From positions 1 through 34,585 of IMG/VR virus record IMGVR_UViG_3300025110_000053: a stretch of 34,585 nt of DNA, one strand, 5' to 3'. A program made the position numbers and the translations under genes. Below are positions 4,614 to 19,019 of the stretch, piece after piece. The notes below the pieces were generated by a model. The model worked only from the letters and a program-made list of their open reading frames with translations. It ran no database searches and was not told the DNA's origin. Source of the stretch: a virus. Position 1 is the stretch's first letter, and each line of letters starts with the position of its first letter.

Positions 4614-4883
4614 ATGGAACTAAACAGTCAAACGGTAATACGAAGTGTACCTCTTACAGTTCTTGTAGGTCTTGGTGTACAAGCAGTAGCTATTATATGG
4701 AGTGCATCGATGATGTACTCTGATATACAAGCGAATGCTAATGAGATTGCAAAAATATCTGTAAGAACTCTAGCACTAGAGAAAGCTGTACAGGATCAAG
4801 CAGTATCTTTAGCACGTATAGATGAGAACATAAAAGCTATAAGGAAATCAGTAGATAGTATAGCTTTAGTTCAGTTAAAATAA
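4614..4883 (+). CDS. Small membrane protein with one transmembrane helix and coiled coil
   Basis: An 89-residue protein with one predicted membrane helix at about residues 12-35 (VPLTVLVGLGVQAVAIIWSA), followed by a heptad-patterned helix (about 36-85: NEIAKISVRTLALEKAVQ...). The arrangement resembles small late membrane proteins of marine phages near lysis genes and could be a holin accessory or spanin-like component. It lacks a lipobox, so an outer-membrane spanin subunit is not supported. Its stop is followed after one base by the start of the EF-hand membrane gene, so the two are translationally coupled. Confidence 0.7.
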   Translation: MELNSQTVIRSVPLTVLVGLGVQAVAIIWSASMMYSDIQANANEIAKISVRTLALEKAVQDQAVSLARIDENIKAIRKSVDSIALVQLK

Positions 4884-4884
4884 T

Positions 4885-5208
4885 ATGACAAAGAAATTAC
4901 AAGTGAATAGTAAGTATGCTGTTGCTGATACTGATGGCGATGGTATAATTACTGATGAGGAAATGGATCGACATGAACGGTGGATTCGTTTAGAAAATGA
5001 AGATAAGTTAATGGATACACAAAGGATAATGGCATGGGTTGCTATGTTAGCTACAATAGCAGCTGTAGTAGTTTTACTAACACCTATTATTCCTGCAGAT
5101 AGAATGTCTGCTGTATCAGCATTTTTAAACACCTTTATAGTTGCTCAACTAGGTGTGGTTGTAGGATTTATGGGAGCTACAGCTCTGAGCAAAACAAAAA
5201 CTAAATGA
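4885..5208 (+). CDS. Membrane protein with an EF-hand calcium-binding loop and two transmembrane helices
   Basis: A 107-residue protein. Residues 15-26 (DTDGDGIITDEE) form a perfect canonical EF-hand loop, with Asp at positions 1, 3 and 5, Gly at 6, hydrophobic at 8 and Glu at 12. A charged helix (27-45) follows, then two predicted membrane helices (about 49-70 and 83-101) and a basic tail (SKTKTK). The start lies one base after the upstream stop. The topology resembles a class II holin with a calcium-binding head. Calcium sensing is inferred only from the loop. Similar small proteins occur in marine phages, but I know of no demonstrated function. Confidence 0.75.
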   Translation: MTKKLQVNSKYAVADTDGDGIITDEEMDRHERWIRLENEDKLMDTQRIMAWVAMLATIAAVVVLLTPIIPADRMSAVSAFLNTFIVAQLGVVVGFMGATALSKTKTK

Positions 5209-5224
5209 TGGAGTATCATAACAA

Positions 5225-5569
5225 ATGAAGACACTAATTATTGCAGGTACTTTAGTTACCTTACTAGGAGTTTCTGCAAATGCAGAGGCTGTTTCATCGT
5301 CTATTAAACCAGATGCATCTGTTGAGTATGCATTTAAAACACAGCAGTGGTCTGGAGATGTAGGCATTACAACAGGTTTTAGTGGGTTATCTATAAGACC
5401 TTCACTAGACTGGTCATATACAAGTGCTAACTCTATCGCAGTTGATGGTGCAAAAGTAACAAGCACACTGCCACTAGATAGTAACTTATCAATTTACTCA
5501 GAGTTATCTTTGAGTAACAAGTTAAAGTATGATAGTGTATCAATAGGACTATCATATACTTTTGAATAG
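5225..5569 (+). CDS. Exported beta-rich protein, possibly outer-membrane
   Basis: A 114-residue protein with a clear Sec signal peptide: K2, a hydrophobic core at 4-16, and an AxA cleavage site at A18-N19-A20 before E21. The mature part (about 94 residues) alternates polar and hydrophobic residues (VEYAFKTQQWSGDVGITTG, SLDWSYTSANS, SVSIGLSYTFE), as amphipathic beta strands do. It ends with aromatic residues at a strand end, reminiscent of outer-membrane barrels. No cysteines or catalytic motifs are evident. A phage protein of this kind could sit in the host outer membrane (superinfection exclusion or lysis), but this is inference. Confidence 0.7.
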   Translation: MKTLIIAGTLVTLLGVSANAEAVSSSIKPDASVEYAFKTQQWSGDVGITTGFSGLSIRPSLDWSYTSANSIAVDGAKVTSTLPLDSNLSIYSELSLSNKLKYDSVSIGLSYTFE

Positions 5570-5578
5570 GAGAATTAA

Positions 5579-5767
5579 ATGGATTGGATTAAAGGAAGAT
5601 TAAAAGAACCTTCTAGTTACGCAGCTGCCGCTGTTGCTGGATTAGGTCTTGGAATTGTATTTACATTACCAATACTAAGTTGGGCAGGAATAGTATGCGC
5701 TATCTTTGCTCTAGTACTAAAAGAAGATTCTTGTAATTGTGATAACAAAAAGAAGAAAAAGAAATAA
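5579..5767 (+). CDS. Small holin-like membrane protein with poly-lysine tail
   Basis: A 62-residue protein. A short amphipathic, charged N-terminus (MDWIKGRLKEPSSY) is followed by a hydrophobic region from about 15 to 46 that could span the membrane once or as a tight hairpin, then CNC and six consecutive lysines. Small size, hydrophobic core and basic C-terminus fit a phage holin, and the MDWIK.RLKEPSSYAA start is frequent in marine phage holin-like proteins. It has a good GGAG ribosome site. Two other membrane genes nearby could equally be the holin. Confidence 0.6.
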   Translation: MDWIKGRLKEPSSYAAAAVAGLGLGIVFTLPILSWAGIVCAIFALVLKEDSCNCDNKKKKKK

Positions 5768-5904: not shown

Positions 5905-6195
5905 ATGCCAGCAAAGAAAGGAACTATGAAAGGTCACACCATAGGTGGAGGTCATAAAAGACCTACAAAATCTGGTGCTGGCATGACAAAGAAGGGTGTT
6001 GCTAAGTATAGAAGAGACAACCCCGGATCTAAACTTAAGACAGCTGTTACTGGTAAAGTAAAGAAAGGAAGTGCAGCAGCTAAACGACGTAAGTCATATT
6101 GCGCTCGATCTGCTGGACAAATGAAACAGTTTCCTAAAGCAGCTAAAGATCCTAACAGTAGATTAAGACAAGCCAGAAAACGATGGAAGTGTTAA
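5905..6195 (+). CDS. Basic DUF6321-like protein
   Basis: A 96-residue, strongly basic protein rich in Lys, Arg and Gly. The core (about 24-75: AGMTKKGVAKYRRDNPGSKL, then TGKVKKGSAAAKRRKSYCAR) matches what I recall of DUF6321 proteins in marine phages. The charge suggests DNA or RNA binding, or packaging with the genome. There are two cysteines (C67 and the final C96) and no catalytic motif. It has a GGAG ribosome site and lies in tandem with the 38-residue basic gene. Family assignment is from memory; function is unknown. Confidence 0.75.
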   Translation: MPAKKGTMKGHTIGGGHKRPTKSGAGMTKKGVAKYRRDNPGSKLKTAVTGKVKKGSAAAKRRKSYCARSAGQMKQFPKAAKDPNSRLRQARKRWKC

Positions 6196-6199
6196 TTCT

Positions 6200-6222
6200 A
6201 TATACCCCTTAAAGGGAGAAAC
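6200..6222 (+). promoter_or_regulatory. Possible promoter or hairpin upstream of the reductase gene
   Basis: The 50-base gap before the reductase gene contains TATACCCCTTAAAGGGAGAA. The run AAAGGGAGA resembles the +1 region of T7-type promoters (GGGAGA). CCCT (6206-6209) and AGGG (6213-6216) can also pair around a three-base TAA loop, the general form of N4 virion-polymerase promoters, although the stem is only four pairs. Either reading is speculative and no other clear copy was seen. Confidence 0.25.
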
Positions 6223-6245
6223 TATCTAATTAAAGAGGACTATAA

Positions 6246-8024
6246 ATGAACAATGTGTATTATGAATCACCAACAATGACTATCTCTGAGGAGATTGATA
6301 AAATGAAGTATCGTCAAGAAGGTGAAACATTTGATGATAAAGTAAGACGTATTGCTGGTGCATTACATGATACCCCAGAGCATAAGTACGAACTGCAGGA
6401 TATCTTAGGGAACATGAGGTTCCTACCTGCAGGTCGTGTGCAGAATGCTGTGGGTTCTAGAAGAATTACAACAGCATATAACTGTTTTGTATCAGGTACA
6501 ATAGAAGATTCTATGAGTAACATTATGGAAAGAGCTTCTGAGGCTGCAGAGACTATGAGAAGAGGAGGAGGCATTGGGTATGATTTTTCGAAACTGCGTC
6601 CAAAAGGGGATCTTATTAAATCCTTGGATTCCAAATCGTCTGGGCCAGTATCTTTTATGGGTATCTTTGATTCTATTTGCCAAACCATTGCGAGTTCGGG
6701 ACATAGACGAGGCGCGCAGATGGGTGTTCTACGTGTGGACCACCCGGATATTAAAGATTTCCTTACTGCTAAACGTAATTCTGATAAGCTTACTGGTTTT
6801 AATATTAGTGTAGGTATTACCGATGACTTTATGTCAGCACTAAAAGAAAATGAAGAATACGAATTAATGTTTGATGGTGTTCATAGAGGTAGAGAAAGTG
6901 CTACTGAGATATGGGAAATGATTATGTCAAGTACTTGGGATTGGGCAGAACCCGGAGTTCTATTTATTGATAGAATAAAAGAGATGAATAATCTTTACTA
7001 CTGTGAAGAGATAGCTGCAACTAATCCATGTGGTGAACAACCATTACCTCCATACGGTGCTTGTTTGTTAGGATCTTTTAATCTTACTAAGTATGTACAC
7101 GGAGAGACATCTATAGATGGAGAGGAAAGCGGTCCTTATATATTTAACTTTACGCAATTTAAAGCTGATATACCACACATAGTTAGAGCTATGGATAACG
7201 TTATAGACCGTACAATATATCCATTAAAGCCACAAGCAGATGAAGCAAAGAATAAAAGAAGAATGGGGTTAGGACTTACAGGACTAGCGAATGCTGGAGA
7301 AATGTTAGGGTATCCATATGGATCTGATAGTTTTCTAGCATGGGCAGAAAAAGTGTTTGCATGTTTGAGAGACAATACATACAAAGCTTCTGCTAAGTTA
7401 GCTGAAGAGAAGGGTTCATTTCCTATGTATAGAGAAGAGTATTTGAAAAGTAATTTTGTCAGGTCTTTACCTGCTTCAGTTAAAAAGGAAATACGCAAAC
7501 ATGGCATCAGGAATTCGCACCTTACCTCGATTGCTCCAACTGGTACGATCAGTCTGGTGGCAGATAACGTCAGTGGAGGAATCGAACCAGTCTTTTCACA
7601 TTACTATGACCGTACCATCCAGACTTTTGACGGACCAATCGTTGAAAGAGTTGAGGACTATGCGTACTCAAAAGGGATTAAAGGACGAACTGCAAATGAA
7701 ATAACAGTAGATGAACACTTGTCAGTATTGTTACTGGCTCAAAATTATATTGATTCAGCTTGTAGTAAAACGTGTAATGTGGGGGATGACGTAACGTATG
7801 AAGAGTTCAAACAGGTCTATATGGATGCCTTCAACGGTGGAGCGAAAGGGTGTACGACGTTTAGAGCGTCAGGTAAAAGATTTGGAATCTTTAACGCGCC
7901 CTTGGAAGAAGAAGAGAAGGATGAGGTCAAGATTAAAAGCGTTACAAAGAAGAGTAGAGAGGAGGAAGAGGCGATATTGGCTTGCTTCATTGATCCACTC
8001 ACCGGACAAAAGGAATGCTCTTGA
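6246..8024 (+). CDS. nrdJ: Ribonucleotide reductase, adenosylcobalamin-dependent (class II)
   Basis: A 592-residue enzyme reducing ribonucleotides to deoxyribonucleotides for phage DNA synthesis, using a radical from vitamin B12 coenzyme. Visible motifs are C80 (YNCFVSG), the radical site N260-P-C262-G-E264, the second barrel cysteine C273 eleven residues later (as C408/C419 in the Lactobacillus enzyme), GLTGLAN, and SIAPTGTISLV. A C-terminal shuttle pair, C580 and C591 (CFIDPLTGQKEC), should be re-reduced by thioredoxin. No class I radical subunit or class III glycyl site is present, so class II is favoured. The gene lies among late genes, away from the replication block. Base composition is uneven along the gene, suggesting mosaic origin. 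Confidence 0.92.
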   Translation: MNNVYYESPTMTISEEIDKMKYRQEGETFDDKVRRIAGALHDTPEHKYELQDILGNMRFLPAGRVQNAVGSRRITTAYNCFVSGTIEDSMSNIMERASEAAETMRRGGGIGYDFSKLRPKGDLIKSLDSKSSGPVSFMGIFDSICQTIASSGHRRGAQMGVLRVDHPDIKDFLTAKRNSDKLTGFNISVGITDDFMSALKENEEYELMFDGVHRGRESATEIWEMIMSSTWDWAEPGVLFIDRIKEMNNLYYCEEIAATNPCGEQPLPPYGACLLGSFNLTKYVHGETSIDGEESGPYIFNFTQFKADIPHIVRAMDNVIDRTIYPLKPQADEAKNKRRMGLGLTGLANAGEMLGYPYGSDSFLAWAEKVFACLRDNTYKASAKLAEEKGSFPMYREEYLKSNFVRSLPASVKKEIRKHGIRNSHLTSIAPTGTISLVADNVSGGIEPVFSHYYDRTIQTFDGPIVERVEDYAYSKGIKGRTANEITVDEHLSVLLLAQNYIDSACSKTCNVGDDVTYEEFKQVYMDAFNGGAKGCTTFRASGKRFGIFNAPLEEEEKDEVKIKSVTKKSREEEEAILACFIDPLTGQKECS

Positions 8025-8047: not shown

Positions 8048-8569
8048 ATGTTATTTGGATTACCAACGGCTTTGGTCAGTTCAGGATTTGGAGCCATCAC
8101 TGGCTTTGCAGGTAAGATCTGGAGCCAAAACCAAGAAGTGAAAGCTTCTGAAAGAAAGCATCAAATGGACATGATTGTTGCTGTATCAAAAGCAAACAGT
8201 GATGCTGCTGATACTGAAATAAAATTAATGGAAGCTAAGATTAAATATGAGAAAGGCTTATCAAAGACAGATCCACATAGGTCTGTAGCTCGACGAGTTC
8301 TTGCATATGGATTATTAATAACACTAGCATTTGGTATACCCTATATGGTAGTAATGTATGACTTCCAATGGTTTGATATAAAAACAGTTATGGAAGAAAG
8401 CAATGGAATATTTGGTATAGGTAAAAGTAATAAAGAAGTACAAGAGGTCACTACAGTTATTGGGTTACCAATGATATGGTTAATGACTTTACTAGATGTA
8501 TTTGCTGGTATCATATCGTTCTACTTCGGTGGATCAATAGCCAAGTTTAGAAATCCATACGCGAAATAA
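8048..8569 (+). CDS. Holin-like membrane protein
   Basis: A 173-residue protein. It has a hydrophobic N-terminus (about 3-25), a long charged helix (27-80), and two strong membrane helices at about 84-103 and 138-162, ending in FYFGGSIAKFRNPYAK. The layout resembles Holin_3TMs, a family of three-helix holins known from gene transfer agents and marine phages. Its place between the reductase and the nozzle gene, with an AAAGGAG ribosome site, fits a late lysis gene. No endolysin gene is visible beside it. The family assignment is by pattern only. Confidence 0.55.
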   Translation: MLFGLPTALVSSGFGAITGFAGKIWSQNQEVKASERKHQMDMIVAVSKANSDAADTEIKLMEAKIKYEKGLSKTDPHRSVARRVLAYGLLITLAFGIPYMVVMYDFQWFDIKTVMEESNGIFGIGKSNKEVQEVTTVIGLPMIWLMTLLDVFAGIISFYFGGSIAKFRNPYAK

Positions 8570-13527: not shown

Positions 13528-14271
13528 ATGTATTTTAACCCACTAAGTCCAACGAAATGGACACAACATCCTCATACACAAGTACGATGGGGAGGAGGTG
13601 GAGGATCATCAACTACAACAGGTGTACCTGATTGGTTACGTCCTCAAGTAGAGAAAGCTGCAAACGATGCTACAGCATTGTATGATGAAGGTGCTTTAAG
13701 TAATGTAGCTGGATTAACACCAGAGCAAATGGATGCATACAATAGAAAACTAGAGCTTGGTAAACAAGGTGGTATGTTGGATCAACTAGCAGCTGATTCT
13801 TATGGAGCTGCAGGAGCTTATAGAGATGCTGCACAAGGCACTGGTCTGTTTGGATCTGATGCTTTGGGTCAACAGATCACGGCAATGAAAGATACTATTG
13901 GTGATGCACAGATGGCTCAGTTAGGTCAACTACAAGGTAATGCATCTTTTGGTGGTAATTTAGGATCTGCAAGATCAGAGGCTATGAATGCTGCAGCTTT
14001 ATCTAAGACTGCTGGTGAAATGGGAGCAGCTGAACTTGCTAACAGACGTAACGCTTCTTTAAGTGGAGCGCAAGGTGTTATTGGATCTGGTTCTACTATT
14101 GGTCAACAAATGGGTCAAGGTGTATCAGCTACAGAAGGTGTAGGGTCTGCAATACAACAACAGAATCAAAACGAAGCTGACGCTGGATATCAAGGTATAC
14201 AAAGATTGTTTGGTCTTTATGGATCTCCTGCTGTTGGTCAGAAAACTGTTTCGTCTGGAGGTGGTAAATAA
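13528..14271 (+). CDS. Internal virion (ejection) protein, gp14-like
   Basis: A 247-residue, Ala/Gly/Gln-rich protein. GGGGGSSTTTGVPDWLRPQV near the N-terminus, then long helices of small residues (GNLGSARSEAMNAAALSKTA), are typical of the first, smallest ejection protein of podoviruses. T7 gp14 is 196 residues and inserts in the outer membrane during DNA entry. There is no signal peptide; low-complexity helices could span a membrane after ejection. The stop overlaps the next start by one base (TAATG). The role is inferred from composition and gene order. Confidence 0.6.
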   Translation: MYFNPLSPTKWTQHPHTQVRWGGGGGSSTTTGVPDWLRPQVEKAANDATALYDEGALSNVAGLTPEQMDAYNRKLELGKQGGMLDQLAADSYGAAGAYRDAAQGTGLFGSDALGQQITAMKDTIGDAQMAQLGQLQGNASFGGNLGSARSEAMNAAALSKTAGEMGAAELANRRNASLSGAQGVIGSGSTIGQQMGQGVSATEGVGSAIQQQNQNEADAGYQGIQRLFGLYGSPAVGQKTVSSGGGK

Positions 14272-15503
14272 TGGCTGGTATGTTACAAGGAATGGGAGGT
14301 AGTCTCTCTGAAGAAGATCTAAAAAAGTTTGGACCTATAATAGCATCACAAGGACCAATGCCAACACCGTCTTTAGATGGTAACTTAATACAAGCTGGTT
14401 CTACAGGTAATGCAGCTGCACCGTTAGCTGGGTATTTAAACAAAACAAGTACAGGTAATCCTGTTATATCATATGTGCCACCACATTTAAGACCTGAAGA
14501 TGATGCACCTGAAGATGGAGAGGGATCTCCTAACGATGGTATCACAGATGGTGAAGATCCTATAGACTCTGATGGTGATGGTATACCAGATACAATTCTT
14601 CCACCCGGAGGCTTCTACGATGTCGGAGGGGGAGGAGACAATCCTGATGGTATGGGTGGTCAAGTTGGAGATGTATCTTATTACGGTGGTGGATATAATT
14701 CTTTTACAGATATGATTGATGGTGGTGGACCGGGAATGTTTGGTGGTCAACATCAAGGTATGTTTAGTAATGTAGGTAATGCTATATCAGGTGTATTAGG
14801 ACAAGATAACATAGCTAATACAGGTAATATCTCTTATGCATATAACCCTGCAAGTAATAATTCTGTTAATACAGCACCACATCCCGGAATACAATACACA
14901 GCACCTGCTGCTGCAGTACTAGGTCTAGCAGATCAAACAGTTGATAACTGGAGTGCTGGTCAAGAAGATGGTGGTGATGCTAGTAGTGGTGGTAGTCCAA
15001 GTAGTGATGGGAGTGGTCAGGCTGGTGACGTAAATAATGATCCTAATTCTATGAGTATGGGTGGCCCTGTAGAATACTATGCTAAAGGATCAATGTGTCC
15101 TAAGTGTGGTAAATCAAACTGTGGATGTGGTTATAATCAAGGTGGTCCTGTCCAATACAAAAAGTATGGTGGATCTATATGGGATACTGAGAACCAATTA
15201 AGAATACAACAACCTGCATTAGATCAGAAACGTAGACAAGCACCGATGGCTCAGAAGAGTTCTGGTGGACTCCTTGGGACTATCATGGGAATCGGTAAGA
15301 TGGCGTCTGTATTAACTGGTAATCCGTTGATGGCTATGTTTGGTGAGGGTGGTTCTGTAAAAAATACACCTGTATTAGGACCATTAAGTAGTAGACAGAT
15401 GAAGATGGAATCTCACATGAAGAATGAAGCTCGTAAAGATATGAAGTTTGCTATTGATGAGAAGCGTAAACAAGAATTACATATGAATAAACTTAGATCA
15501 TAA
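14271..15503 (+). CDS. Gly/Asp-rich virion protein with zinc-knuckle motif
   Basis: A 410-residue, very Gly/Asp/Ser-rich protein of low complexity. Residues 99-107 (DSDGDGIPD) form a calcium-type DxDxDG loop. Residues 276-286 (CPKCGKSNCGC, cysteines 276, 279, 284, 286) could bind one zinc, flanked by GGPVEYYAKG and GGPVQYKKYGG, a repeated pattern also common in marine phage internal proteins. The C-terminal 50 residues are helical and basic. It lies between the gp14-like and lysozyme-bearing proteins, so it is probably packaged or an assembly factor. I do not recognise a specific function. Confidence 0.6.
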   Translation: MAGMLQGMGGSLSEEDLKKFGPIIASQGPMPTPSLDGNLIQAGSTGNAAAPLAGYLNKTSTGNPVISYVPPHLRPEDDAPEDGEGSPNDGITDGEDPIDSDGDGIPDTILPPGGFYDVGGGGDNPDGMGGQVGDVSYYGGGYNSFTDMIDGGGPGMFGGQHQGMFSNVGNAISGVLGQDNIANTGNISYAYNPASNNSVNTAPHPGIQYTAPAAAVLGLADQTVDNWSAGQEDGGDASSGGSPSSDGSGQAGDVNNDPNSMSMGGPVEYYAKGSMCPKCGKSNCGCGYNQGGPVQYKKYGGSIWDTENQLRIQQPALDQKRRQAPMAQKSSGGLLGTIMGIGKMASVLTGNPLMAMFGEGGSVKNTPVLGPLSSRQMKMESHMKNEARKDMKFAIDEKRKQELHMNKLRS

Positions 15504-15518
15504 TATAGGAGAAGTAAT

Positions 15519-18500
15519 ATGCCTAAACATCCCGGACGTCCGAAGGGATCGGATACAGTTCCTGCTTGGTTAACACCCGGAGAATTTGTTATGAACGCTG
15601 AAGCTGCTCGTATGTTTGCTCCTCAGATACAAGCTATGAATGATCGTGGGAGAGCCGTACAAAAGGCTCAAGGGGGTACAATACCTGAGATGGGAACAGT
15701 ACCTATTCCAACGACACCTAACCCCAGTGCTGCTTATCACGAAGGTGGTGCAGTTACAAAGTCTATTGTACCAAAAGCTAGGAAACAACCTCCAGCTTGG
15801 ATGAATCAAATAGAGATGAGAGAGGGTGGATTAAAAAGAGAAATCTATATAGACTCTGAAGGGTATCCTACAGTAGGTATAGGTCATAGATTACCTGACG
15901 AATATAAAAGTAAAAAAGGTCAAGTGTTATTCTCTGATGATCAATTAAATAAATGGTTTACTGAAGACATTGCAAAAGCTACTACTAATGCTTCTGACAA
16001 CATATCTAATTTTGATTCTTTAGATAGTAATGTACAAGGTGCATTAATTAATCAAGCTTTTCAATTAGGTGGAACTGGTCAGAAAGGTTTTGAAAAAATG
16101 ATTAAAGCTATTGAAGATGGAGATATGAATAAAGCAGCTTCTGAAGCTTTAGATTCAAACTGGTTTAGTCAAACTCCAAAGAGAGCATTAGATTTAGCTA
16201 GTATACTTAGAGGTGAGGAACCCAAAATGGAATATAATAAAGGTGGACCAGTACCAAGATACTATGGATTAGGAAGTTTTGTACGATCATTGTTTGGTAC
16301 AGATGATGATGATGATAGGTTTACTATGCCAGATGCAACTGCTTTGTCAGGTACTCCTAACTATATGTTCAGTAATAAAAATGATATTGTAGTACCTCCA
16401 AATGTACAAACTAAAATAAACACCGATGGTAGTTGGTTTAATTCAGAATATGCTGGAGAGCCATTACATATGGGAGATTCAAATTTTGATGTACCAGAAC
16501 CTCCTAAGTTTTCTGATCAAGATTTAATTCAGAACTCTTCAAATGCTTTAAAAGATGTACCACTTATATCCTTAAAGGACGATGACTTAGGTGCATTAAA
16601 AGAGTTAGGTAATGATGACGCAGAAGATATTCTTAAACAAAGAAGAATAGCAAATGAGTATGGATCATACGTACCAACTAATTTTAATCCTGAAAGAAGA
16701 AGATTAGAAGATGAAGCATATAATAGATTTGGTATGAATCTAAATGATGATAATACTTTATCTCCTGTAGAAAAACCAGTAAATCTTGATCCAAGGATAG
16801 GTGTATCTGAATACTATGGAGTTCCTAAAGACTATGGAAGTGGTATGAGTTTGAATGAAGATGCACGAGCATCATTACCACCTAGGTTTATGGACCCACG
16901 TACAAGAAAAATACCAACTGGTCCTGCAAGTTATGATCAAATGCCACCAAGAAGAACGGCAGATATAGATATAGGTGAAGGTTCATTTGGTTATGGACAA
17001 TTTAAAAGACCTGACGATCCTACTTTTAAACAGTTAATACGAGATGGTGAAGGTAATAATGTTTTAAGAGGAGACTTAGGGATGCCTATGGACCCTGTTA
17101 ATGTAGATTCAAATGACCCAAGGGTAGGTGTACCTGAATACTATGGAGTTCCTAAAGTAAACGAATCAAAAAGGGGTCGTATAGGAGAAAAAGTTGAACC
17201 TGTAGTTGAATCAACATTCTTAGCTAATGCTACACCAGAGCAAATAGATCAGTATAATACTGAAAAGGAAAGACGTGAACTAGAAAAGAAAACTATTGGT
17301 AAAACAGGGTTGAATGTTAATGAAGCAGAAAGACAAGAAATCTATAAACAGAAAGTTCTAGAAGCAGAAGAATTTATTGAAACTGGATCTGAAGAAGCGT
17401 TTGCTAAAGCAAAGAATGAAAAAGAAAGATTAGAAGTTGTTGAGAAAATAAAAAAGGCTAATGCATTAATTGCAAACTCTAAAACTAAAGCTAGAATAGA
17501 AGCTAATAAAGATAAGTTATTAAAGAGAGGTCAAGCTACACAAATTAATCAAGAATTAGATAGTAAAATATCTGCTCTTCAAAAGGAATTAGGAACAGCT
17601 ACAGATCCTAATCATAAAGCATTTTTAGAAAAAGAAATAGATAGGTTACAAGGTAATAAAGTTGATACTACTACAGATGTATTAAGTAAAGATGATTCTA
17701 GTAGTGATGGTGGTAATGTAAGCCCTAAGAATTCTCCAGAAGTTAACTTAGATAATTCAGAAAAATCTAACAATCAGCAATTAGAAAATGATCCTACTAT
17801 TGAAGATAAAGGGAAGAACGCTCCACCAGAAGTTAAAGCAGCTGCAGTAGATGAAATAAAAAGTGTCTTTGGTGAGATGTTTGATGTTGAAGAACTTACA
17901 CGAATGGCTATACTATATCTAGGTGCTAGGGCAACTGGTGCATCTGGATCACAAGCTATGGCATTTGCTGGTAAGAGTTACCTATCTCGATTAGATAATA
18001 AGTATAAACAGAATAAGTTTAATGAACATTACAATTCATTACTTAAAGGTAATAATTTTACAAGGGATTCTATGGAACTTTATAAGTATACTAAAGATCC
18101 TAATGTCTTAGTTACTAAATCATCTTTACGAAAAGGAAGTGTATCAGGAGATCCTAAAGGTGAAGTGTTTTACACAAAAGCTAATGTAAGAGGTGTAAGA
18201 GGTCAGAAATTAAGATTGTTTAAAAATGATGAAGTAGATTCAACTGGTAAGAAAACAGGTAATACATTTTATACAACATCTGATGGAACACCTATAAGTC
18301 AACAACAGTTAGAGATGTATTTTACTACTGATGAATCTACTATACCGGAAACTGATGCGTACATAAAATCAAGAAATGAAGTTGCAACAGGGATACGTCC
18401 TGTGATAAAAGAAAAGATTGATATGTTTAAACCTACTGATACTAATGAAGGTAATCCTGCAATGTATAAGATTGTAGGTAATCATAAAGAAAAAATTACA

Positions 18501-19019
18501 ATGGAAGTAGCTAAATTTTCTAAAGATCTTCAATTAAAAGAAGGTCAAATGGTGACTGCAAATATTATTGAGAATGCTTTTGGTAAACTACAAGATGATA
18601 TTGATGATGGTTTTTATGATGATGTTAGCACTATAACATTTACTGATTACTTAGATCGAGCTTATATAGGTACGAAGGTAGGTAATGAGAAATACTTTAC
18701 ATATGAGACTTCAAATGGTAAATCAAAAACAGACTCAGCTAAAGATGTTGATATTGCACTTGATGGATTAACTAGAGGTGTTAAGTCAAAGGGTGGTGGT
18801 AAATGGATAAATACTCCTCCTATTGTCATTAATGATTTGTTATTAAGACAAGCTAAAATTAAACTTGGAAATGGTGAAGGTAGTATGAATGATGCAGAAA
18901 GAGCTAAATTTAATGCAGCTTATGAAAAGTCAATTAAAACTAAACCACAATCAAAAATGTTATTCTATTTAGAAACTGAAATTAATGAATTAAATTATGA
19001 TGATTATTTTAAAAGATAA
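15519..19019 (+). CDS. Internal virion protein with GH24 lysozyme domain
   Basis: A 1166-residue protein. Residues 11-26 (SDTVPAWLTPGEFVMN) are a motif common in phage internal and tape-like proteins. Residues about 95-235 form a T4-type lysozyme: MREGGLKREIYIDSEGY with PTVGIGH gives catalytic E102, D112 and T118 (T4: E11, D20, T26). The wall-cutting domain would open the peptidoglycan during DNA entry, as the transglycosylase of T7 gp16 does. The remainder (about 240-1166) is charged and helix-rich with no recognised domain. A 14-residue motif, DPR(I/V)GV(S/P)EYYGVPK, appears twice (424-437 and 533-546). Confidence 0.8.
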   Translation: MPKHPGRPKGSDTVPAWLTPGEFVMNAEAARMFAPQIQAMNDRGRAVQKAQGGTIPEMGTVPIPTTPNPSAAYHEGGAVTKSIVPKARKQPPAWMNQIEMREGGLKREIYIDSEGYPTVGIGHRLPDEYKSKKGQVLFSDDQLNKWFTEDIAKATTNASDNISNFDSLDSNVQGALINQAFQLGGTGQKGFEKMIKAIEDGDMNKAASEALDSNWFSQTPKRALDLASILRGEEPKMEYNKGGPVPRYYGLGSFVRSLFGTDDDDDRFTMPDATALSGTPNYMFSNKNDIVVPPNVQTKINTDGSWFNSEYAGEPLHMGDSNFDVPEPPKFSDQDLIQNSSNALKDVPLISLKDDDLGALKELGNDDAEDILKQRRIANEYGSYVPTNFNPERRRLEDEAYNRFGMNLNDDNTLSPVEKPVNLDPRIGVSEYYGVPKDYGSGMSLNEDARASLPPRFMDPRTRKIPTGPASYDQMPPRRTADIDIGEGSFGYGQFKRPDDPTFKQLIRDGEGNNVLRGDLGMPMDPVNVDSNDPRVGVPEYYGVPKVNESKRGRIGEKVEPVVESTFLANATPEQIDQYNTEKERRELEKKTIGKTGLNVNEAERQEIYKQKVLEAEEFIETGSEEAFAKAKNEKERLEVVEKIKKANALIANSKTKARIEANKDKLLKRGQATQINQELDSKISALQKELGTATDPNHKAFLEKEIDRLQGNKVDTTTDVLSKDDSSSDGGNVSPKNSPEVNLDNSEKSNNQQLENDPTIEDKGKNAPPEVKAAAVDEIKSVFGEMFDVEELTRMAILYLGARATGASGSQAMAFAGKSYLSRLDNKYKQNKFNEHYNSLLKGNNFTRDSMELYKYTKDPNVLVTKSSLRKGSVSGDPKGEVFYTKANVRGVRGQKLRLFKNDEVDSTGKKTGNTFYTTSDGTPISQQQLEMYFTTDESTIPETDAYIKSRNEVATGIRPVIKEKIDMFKPTDTNEGNPAMYKIVGNHKEKITMEVAKFSKDLQLKEGQMVTANIIENAFGKLQDDIDDGFYDDVSTITFTDYLDRAYIGTKVGNEKYFTYETSNGKSKTDSAKDVDIALDGLTRGVKSKGGGKWINTPPIVINDLLLRQAKIKLGNGEGSMNDAERAKFNAAYEKSIKTKPQSKMLFYLETEINELNYDDYFKR

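Follow-up and report, generated by a model that had tools for sequence, protein, structure and literature searches.

A holin-like membrane hairpin of phages with a conserved EF-hand-type loop, often encoded beside lysis genes

Introduction

Holins are the clocks of phage lysis, and their trigger is poorly understood. Class II holins, of which the lambdoid S21 protein is an example, have two transmembrane (TM) helices and an N-in/C-in topology. A small open reading frame in a 34,585-nucleotide stretch of viral DNA (IMG/VR record IMGVR_UViG_3300025110_000053, positions 1 to 34,585; the whole stretch is here called the window) raises the question of what an EF-hand-type loop is doing on a protein of this shape. 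A preliminary description had read the product (the window protein) as a perfect EF-hand directly followed by a two-pass membrane region, encoded in a late, lysis-like gene cluster, and had proposed a calcium-responsive holin or pore working in sea water, where calcium is high.

By its look we take the window to be a fragment of a marine podophage, host and podophage status both being our presumption. It encodes a single-subunit RNA polymerase (best match Roseobacter phage CRP-7, 37% identity), a primase-helicase, a ribonucleotide reductase and tail fibres. The features discussed here are listed in Table 1.

Table 1 Position of the hairpin gene, its parts and the neighbouring features in the window
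Feature	Position	Strand	Remarks
TM-coil protein	4614..4883	+	89 aa; N-terminal TM and coiled-coil-like tail; ends 1 nt before the EF gene
EF-loop and two-TM hairpin protein	4885..5208	+	107-aa open reading frame; PHROG 27150 family
12-residue EF-hand loop DTDGDGIITDEE	4927..4962	+	residues 15–26
TM1	5026..5082	+	residues 48–66, hydropathy; runs on from the long helix beginning in the loop
TM2	5113..5169	+	residues 77–95, hydropathy; basic tail after it
114-aa protein	5225–5569		just downstream of the EF gene; neighbour family of 16
Small membrane protein with lysine tail	5579..5767	+	62 aa; alternative small-holin candidate; neighbour family of 20 loci
GTA_holin_3TM-like membrane protein	8048..8569	+	173 aa; PF11351 19.0 bits, below the cut-off of 24.8
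Phage_lysozyme domain	15819..16163	+	inside a 1166-aa protein, 15519–19019

Results

The loop and hairpin of the window protein

The open reading frame is real. The loop that it encodes reads D1, T, D3, G, D5, G6, I, I8, T9, D, E and E12, and all the canonical EF positions (D1, D/N3, D/N/S5, G6, I/L/V8 and E12 in a 12-residue loop) are occupied as expected. Searched across the six frames of the window, an EF pattern matched once in its strict and once in its loosened form, both times at DTDGDGIITDEE, with a chance expectation in shuffled open reading frames of 0.003 (strict) and 0.007 (loosened) matches; in shuffles of the window protein itself the strict pattern arose in 2 of 200,000. A chance motif as the origin of the loop is rejected by the shuffle statistics and the single six-frame match. 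Elsewhere in the window, the region 14271–15503 holds DSDGDGIPD, a thrombospondin-3-like motif and a possible second calcium site.

The description as a perfect EF-hand holds for the loop positions and not for the rest of the hand. In an AlphaFold2 model of the window protein (mean pLDDT 81.4, pTM 0.50) the incoming helix is only five residues long (10–14), there is no second EF hand in the chain, and the Pfam EF-hand models score below their cut-offs (EF-hand_5, 14.9 against 25.9 bits; EF-hand_1, 14.3 against 25.4 bits), so that the usually paired helix-loop-helix scoring over the Pfam cut-off is not found here. The loop thus has every canonical position in common with EF-hand and dockerin-type loops (PF00036, PF13202) and differs from them in being single and unpaired, with a short incoming helix and an outgoing helix that runs into the membrane. 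EF-hand_5 at E ≤ 0.01 matches 14 of 34 family representatives.

The two-pass membrane region after the loop stands as described. In the model the loop leads into a long helix (24–65) that includes TM1, followed by a turn and a second helix (71–106); hydropathy and the model helices agree that this small protein has two transmembrane helices, as class II holins do. A fold search of the model against the PDB and BFVD, which is uninformative for a helical hairpin, gave nothing at E ≤ 0.001. The window protein belongs to PHROG 27150 (E = 3.3e-7), a large phage family with the annotation function unknown, whose profile matches 26 of the 34 representatives at E ≤ 0.001. It is not placed in a curated holin family, as no holin model in Pfam, PHROGs or NCBIfam matches it; among the representatives, Phage_holin_3_6 matches two weakly (best E 2.7e-4, with no cut-off comparison given). 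Class II holins share with the hairpin its size, the two hydrophobic helices and the basic tail; the N-terminal EF-hand-type loop sets it apart from them, as does the want of a holin-model match for the window protein.

Conservation of the loop among relatives

The preliminary description had made conservation among homologues a test of the loop. A whole-protein search found 77 loci. The 19 diverse members taken from this search and from isolates are invariant at D15, D19, G20, E26 and Q46, of which the first four are loop positions 1, 5, 6 and 12 and the last is a linker residue. Among 34 members below 70% identity, a set biased in that it came partly from a search with the loop itself as pattern, only D15, D19, G20 and E26 are invariant. 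Two further searches did not use the loop, each viral scan being of the best 80 loci. D1, D/N3, D/N5, G6 and E12 are kept in 64/64 distinct proteins (from 75 newly found loci) in the fully loop-free search, and in 49/49 (from 78 newly found loci) in the search with patterns outside the loop and whole-protein confirmation; both sets favour the loop-bearing branch, since their seed alignments came from loop-bearing members. Within that branch the ligands of the loop are thus near-invariant, as the earlier reading needed. Position 5 is N in four of the 64. The non-ligand positions 2, 7 and 11 vary, as does 4 in the fully loop-free set, and synonymous codons vary at the conserved sites (D1 is GAT in 114 and GAC in 60 of 174). 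Fixed ligands, variable non-ligand positions and synonymous change together mark a metal site on which selection acts.

The loop invariance of a 69-sequence alignment is not used as evidence, because this alignment was pre-filtered for the loop pattern and its invariance is partly by construction. Proteins below 90–95 aa, contig-end pieces such as L070–L072 and L074, were dropped before counting, and L075 had no open reading frame match. In all, 220 distinct proteins were examined, and at least 505 and at least 551 stretches passed tblastn in two scans. A scan of bacterial genomes seeded with one subgroup (A5) gave two loci, both on contigs of metagenome-assembled genomes, and one of these contigs is equal in length to a viral contig of IMG/VR.

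The loop is retained in the freshwater Limnohabitans phage DC31 and in phages that infect the soil bacterium Sinorhizobium meliloti. The high calcium of sea water, on which the earlier proposal drew, is therefore not the explanation, and sensing specific to sea water is ruled out.

Loop-less hairpins and topology

The hairpin also occurs without the loop. In Stenotrophomonas phage DLP_6 a relative has the hairpin and lacks the loop, and a search seeded with it gave 56 distinct hairpins from the best 80 loci. Together with CRP-345 and DLP_6 these form a third set of 58 proteins, in which 26 loops are intact, four have one off-consensus position (the "near" loops L320, L362, L363 and L365, with T at position 8 or 3) and 28 proteins are loop-less. 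Many of the 28 begin just ahead of the basic segment that precedes TM1 (e.g. RWKNRRRMAW). A loop-free model, A2, matches loop-less hairpins at E values from ~2e-3 to 8e-18, which makes the hairpin homologous, and PHROG 27150 matches hairpins of both kinds. Those of DC33, cta1H496 and DLP_6 (PHROGs 22774, 14936 and 27150) are thus the homologous hairpin with the EF loop absent. Because such homologues were found in the third set, the comparison indicates that the hairpin is the core of the family and the EF loop an optional module, usually either intact or absent; since hairpins occur without it, the loop is unnecessary for hairpin function in general.

The C-terminal tail is net positive in 68 of the 69 aligned proteins, and there is positive charge ahead of TM1 in 58/58 proteins of the third set. 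In the 69-protein alignment the segment ahead of TM1 is slightly negative on average (−0.87), so the argument for topology rests on the C-terminal tail and the third set. From these an N-in/C-in topology is predicted, which would place the EF loop, probably, in the cytosol, a location that also speaks against the sea-water argument.

The loop may equally be a structural Mg2+ or Ca2+ site, constitutively occupied, which caps the long helix and keeps the hairpin stable but senses nothing, and this would fit either of the lysis roles discussed below. The lone, unpaired loop with its short incoming helix in the model is in keeping with such a site, as is the strict conservation of the ligands alike in sea-water, freshwater and Sinorhizobium phages. 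It sits less well with a module that is dispensable: the loop-less hairpins of DC33 and cta1H496 occupy the same lysis slot as loop-bearing ones, and DC33 has the same recorded host, DCL3, as the loop-bearing DC31. We regard a purely structural site as possible, if on the unlikely side, and as plain a reading as the calcium-dependent pairing considered in the Discussion.

Lysis genes around the hairpin in relatives

Neighbouring open reading frames were clustered, the cluster representatives were named with Pfam and PHROGs, and all loci were searched with the cluster models. The representatives match Phage_lysozyme, GH108, the PHROG 465 endolysin, Rz and GTA_holin_3TM. The models used to recognise lysis genes derive from near neighbours, so the counts below are too low for endolysins of other families, whether close to the hairpin or distant. 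Within 3.5 kb of 174 distinct homologues, many with truncated flanks, we found an endolysin in 96, a 3TM-holin-like gene in 82 and a spanin-like gene in 29, and at least one of the three in 125. Where 5.5 kb was available on both sides (n = 56), a recognised endolysin is present in 31 loci, at 0–2 kb downstream of the hairpin in 26 of them and scattered across the other ten 1-kb bins in 5. At least one lysis gene occurs in 37 of the 56; the remaining 19, with no recognised lysis gene within 5.5 kb, include T4-like isolates and the two closest relatives of the window (L001 and L002). In 28 of 91 complete loci, neither an endolysin nor a 3TM-type or spanin gene was recognised. By hydropathy, 97 of 98 distinct cassette endolysins have no N-terminal hydrophobic export segment, and a large-hole holin is therefore expected. 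The family thus shares with class II holins the spanin-like and endolysin neighbours and the endolysins without export segment, these neighbours being seen in many relatives and not around the window copy. In many cassettes a 155–232-aa protein with a C-terminal TM (clusters 0 and 26, e.g. L117:6631-7098) lies just upstream of the hairpin, with the −1 kb bin holding 18 such genes and 23 of the 56 loci having one overall; the representative of cluster 0 is PHROG 32327, whose function is unknown in PHROGs.

The cassette can be followed in named phages. In Roseobacter phages CRP-1 and CRP-9 the loop-bearing hairpin, an endolysin and a small lipoprotein-like gene follow one another, overlapping or abutting; the small protein has a lipoprotein look and a C-terminal TM and belongs to PHROG 30566 (function unknown), and one of its relatives also matches an Rz-like spanin PHROG. 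CRP-345 has a loop-bearing hairpin, a "spanin2 family protein" and an endolysin. In DC31 the loop-bearing hairpin (6001–6339 in locus coordinates) is followed by an Rz-like gene (6341–6790), in which a lipoprotein-like open reading frame (6513–6758) is nested, and by an M15 endolysin (6803–7186). Limnohabitans phage DC33 has a TM-coil gene, the loop-less hairpin, an Rz-like gene with a nested lipoprotein-like open reading frame and an M15 endolysin, and record cta1H496 has the same first three elements, then a second two-TM open reading frame and a GH108 lysozyme. The Rz-like and lipoprotein calls in these last three are made on architecture (N-terminal TM, nested lipobox-like open reading frame), with no Pfam match over cut-off.

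The T4-like phages HTVC008M, Melnitz and phiM19 have a different arrangement, with the hairpin gene flanked by gp51 and by a large protein that is partly tape-measure-like, and no annotated lysis genes within 6 kb. This would suit a membrane- or virion-associated protein acting in tail assembly or genome entry, its lysis neighbourhood being incidental. The large protein has a tape-measure match in HTVC008M and a weak one in phiM19; in Melnitz the protein at that position matches only the phiM19 family (PHROG 27688), and the loop-less hairpin of DLP_6 has the same position. The gene next to the DLP_6 hairpin, however, contains a GH108 domain, the endolysins of relatives cluster 0–2 kb downstream of the hairpin, and DC31, DC33 and cta1H496 keep the order hairpin, Rz-like gene, endolysin. 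A tail or entry role is on this evidence very unlikely. The lysis link of the family is well supported by gene neighbourhood, and the hairpin is very probably a protein of the lysis module.

The hairpin and other holin-like genes

Three classes of neighbour were counted as 3TM-holin-like: one over the PF11351 cut-off (representative 77.3 bits), a second at 21.0 bits against the cut-off of 24.8, and a third, PHROG 2524, with no Pfam match and holin-like by reading only. The GTA_holin_3TM (PF11351) or PHROG 3427 holin occurs in the same cassettes, often as the next gene; it is a separate protein, as the hairpin has two TM and is not matched by this model. A 3TM-holin-like gene lies within 2.5 kb in 30 of 50 complete endolysin-bearing loci, and the hairpin may accordingly be a regulator or a second holin; for the same reason hole formation by the hairpin is held as no more than likely. 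It could, for example, be a partner or antiholin that times a separate holin (the 3TM GTA type, the PHROG 2524 type or some other small membrane protein), with the loop as a sensor or an oligomerisation element. The other holin types swap (clusters GTAh_a, GTAh_b and PHROG 2524) while the EF hairpin stays, in loci that were chosen on the hairpin; two other holin-like open reading frames are present in the window (5579–5767 and 8048–8569); and two holin-like proteins per cassette are reported for mycobacteriophages (PMC13056207).

Such a partner is hard to name in some cassettes. Among the complete endolysin loci, 20 lack a 3TM-type gene within 2.5 kb. In 12 of these, apart from the spanin-like lipoprotein, no further small multi-span open reading frame lies within 3.5 kb, and a relaxed search (E 10) of these 12 with holin-type models found none. 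L095, where a GTA-type holin gene follows 2.5 kb downstream, is not among them. In DC33, moreover, no two-TM open reading frame other than the loop-less hairpin is listed in the interval from the TM-coil gene to the Rz-like gene and endolysin. We hold the partner or antiholin role to be the less likely one, and lean slightly towards the hairpin itself being the hole-former.

Surroundings of the window copy

The late, lysis-like cluster of the preliminary description is evident in many relatives, and near the window copy no endolysin was recognised. None adjoins the hairpin gene in the window, L001 or L002. In the window, which may be a fragment, PHROGs 465 and 315 have no match and PHROG 7 matches only inside the 1166-aa protein; the start of this protein weakly matches a tape-measure PHROG, and by its size the protein looks like a virion-type hydrolase and not a free endolysin. 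The lysis role of the window copy therefore rests on relatives. In L009 and L058, with hairpins 83% and 80% identical to that of the window, the order is TM-coil gene, EF hairpin, GTA-holin-like gene (of the sub-cut-off class) and GH108.

Downstream of the window hairpin come the 114-aa gene, the 62-aa gene, the ribonucleotide reductase gene and the GTA-holin-like gene, so that the reductase separates the last from the EF gene. L001 and L002 share this order, and their GTA-holin-like open reading frames are 99% and 86% identical to that of the window; PF11351 run over ten related records gave a single match, below cut-off. Neither small gene has a match, the 62-aa gene in Pfam or PHROGs and the 114-aa gene in the same two at E ≤ 0.1. 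By eye, the 114-aa product has a signal-peptide-like start, a beta-strand-like pattern and an outer-membrane look. Upstream, the gene order differs among the window, L001 and L002: a relative of the TM-coil gene is found in L002 (83% identity), one gene further upstream, and none in L001. The TM-plus-coil model also matches L079:3292-3873 beside the hairpin, which is CRP-207 gp73, recorded as a "putative lysozyme", an annotation that looks doubtful.

Discussion

We read the window protein as a class-II-holin-like hairpin that carries a divalent-cation module, optional in the family and under strong selection, and we give this reading as a whole an even chance. Binding of Ca2+ by the loop in vitro is likely. 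Control of the trigger time by calcium during infection is much more doubtful.

On this reading the hairpin would accumulate in the inner membrane and take part in the formation of the hole that frees the cytosolic endolysin. The loop, in the cytosol, would bind a divalent cation, with Ca2+ the likeliest. Since an EF loop on its own normally needs pairing to be stable, cation binding would couple to the pairing of neighbouring hairpins and could tune the trigger of assembly. Free calcium is low in the cytosol; a first leak in the membrane would let in Ca2+, which would favour assembly and give positive feedback. Such a calcium-gated lysis clock, idle at low cytosolic calcium and, after a leak, self-accelerating through loop binding and pairing, is in our view unlikely. 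If true, it would make lysis sharp and let it be triggered also by membrane damage from outside, and the module could be gained or dropped as a unit with the hairpin kept.

The hairpin is of a known, holin-like kind, and its EF module appears to be undescribed in the open-access literature searched. No EF-hand holin is described among the open-access matches listed, or in the passages found in PMC5795418, PMC8528129, PMC6918029 and PMC12629253. Many phages have a tiny two-helix membrane protein with a strongly conserved calcium-type loop, often beside lysis genes, and this suggests a lytic pore, possibly under calcium control. With a near-invariant metal loop in some members and naturally loop-less hairpins at the same gene position in others, the family offers a ready comparison for ion control of lysis timing.

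The hairpins are called "hypothetical protein" in isolate records and are left unannotated in DC33 and cta1H496; the present reading supplies a function hypothesis for the family. A taxonomy label in these records also looks wrong, as DC33 (L396, PQ492659.1) is filed under Inoviridae despite its 39 kb and its Rz-like and endolysin cassette.
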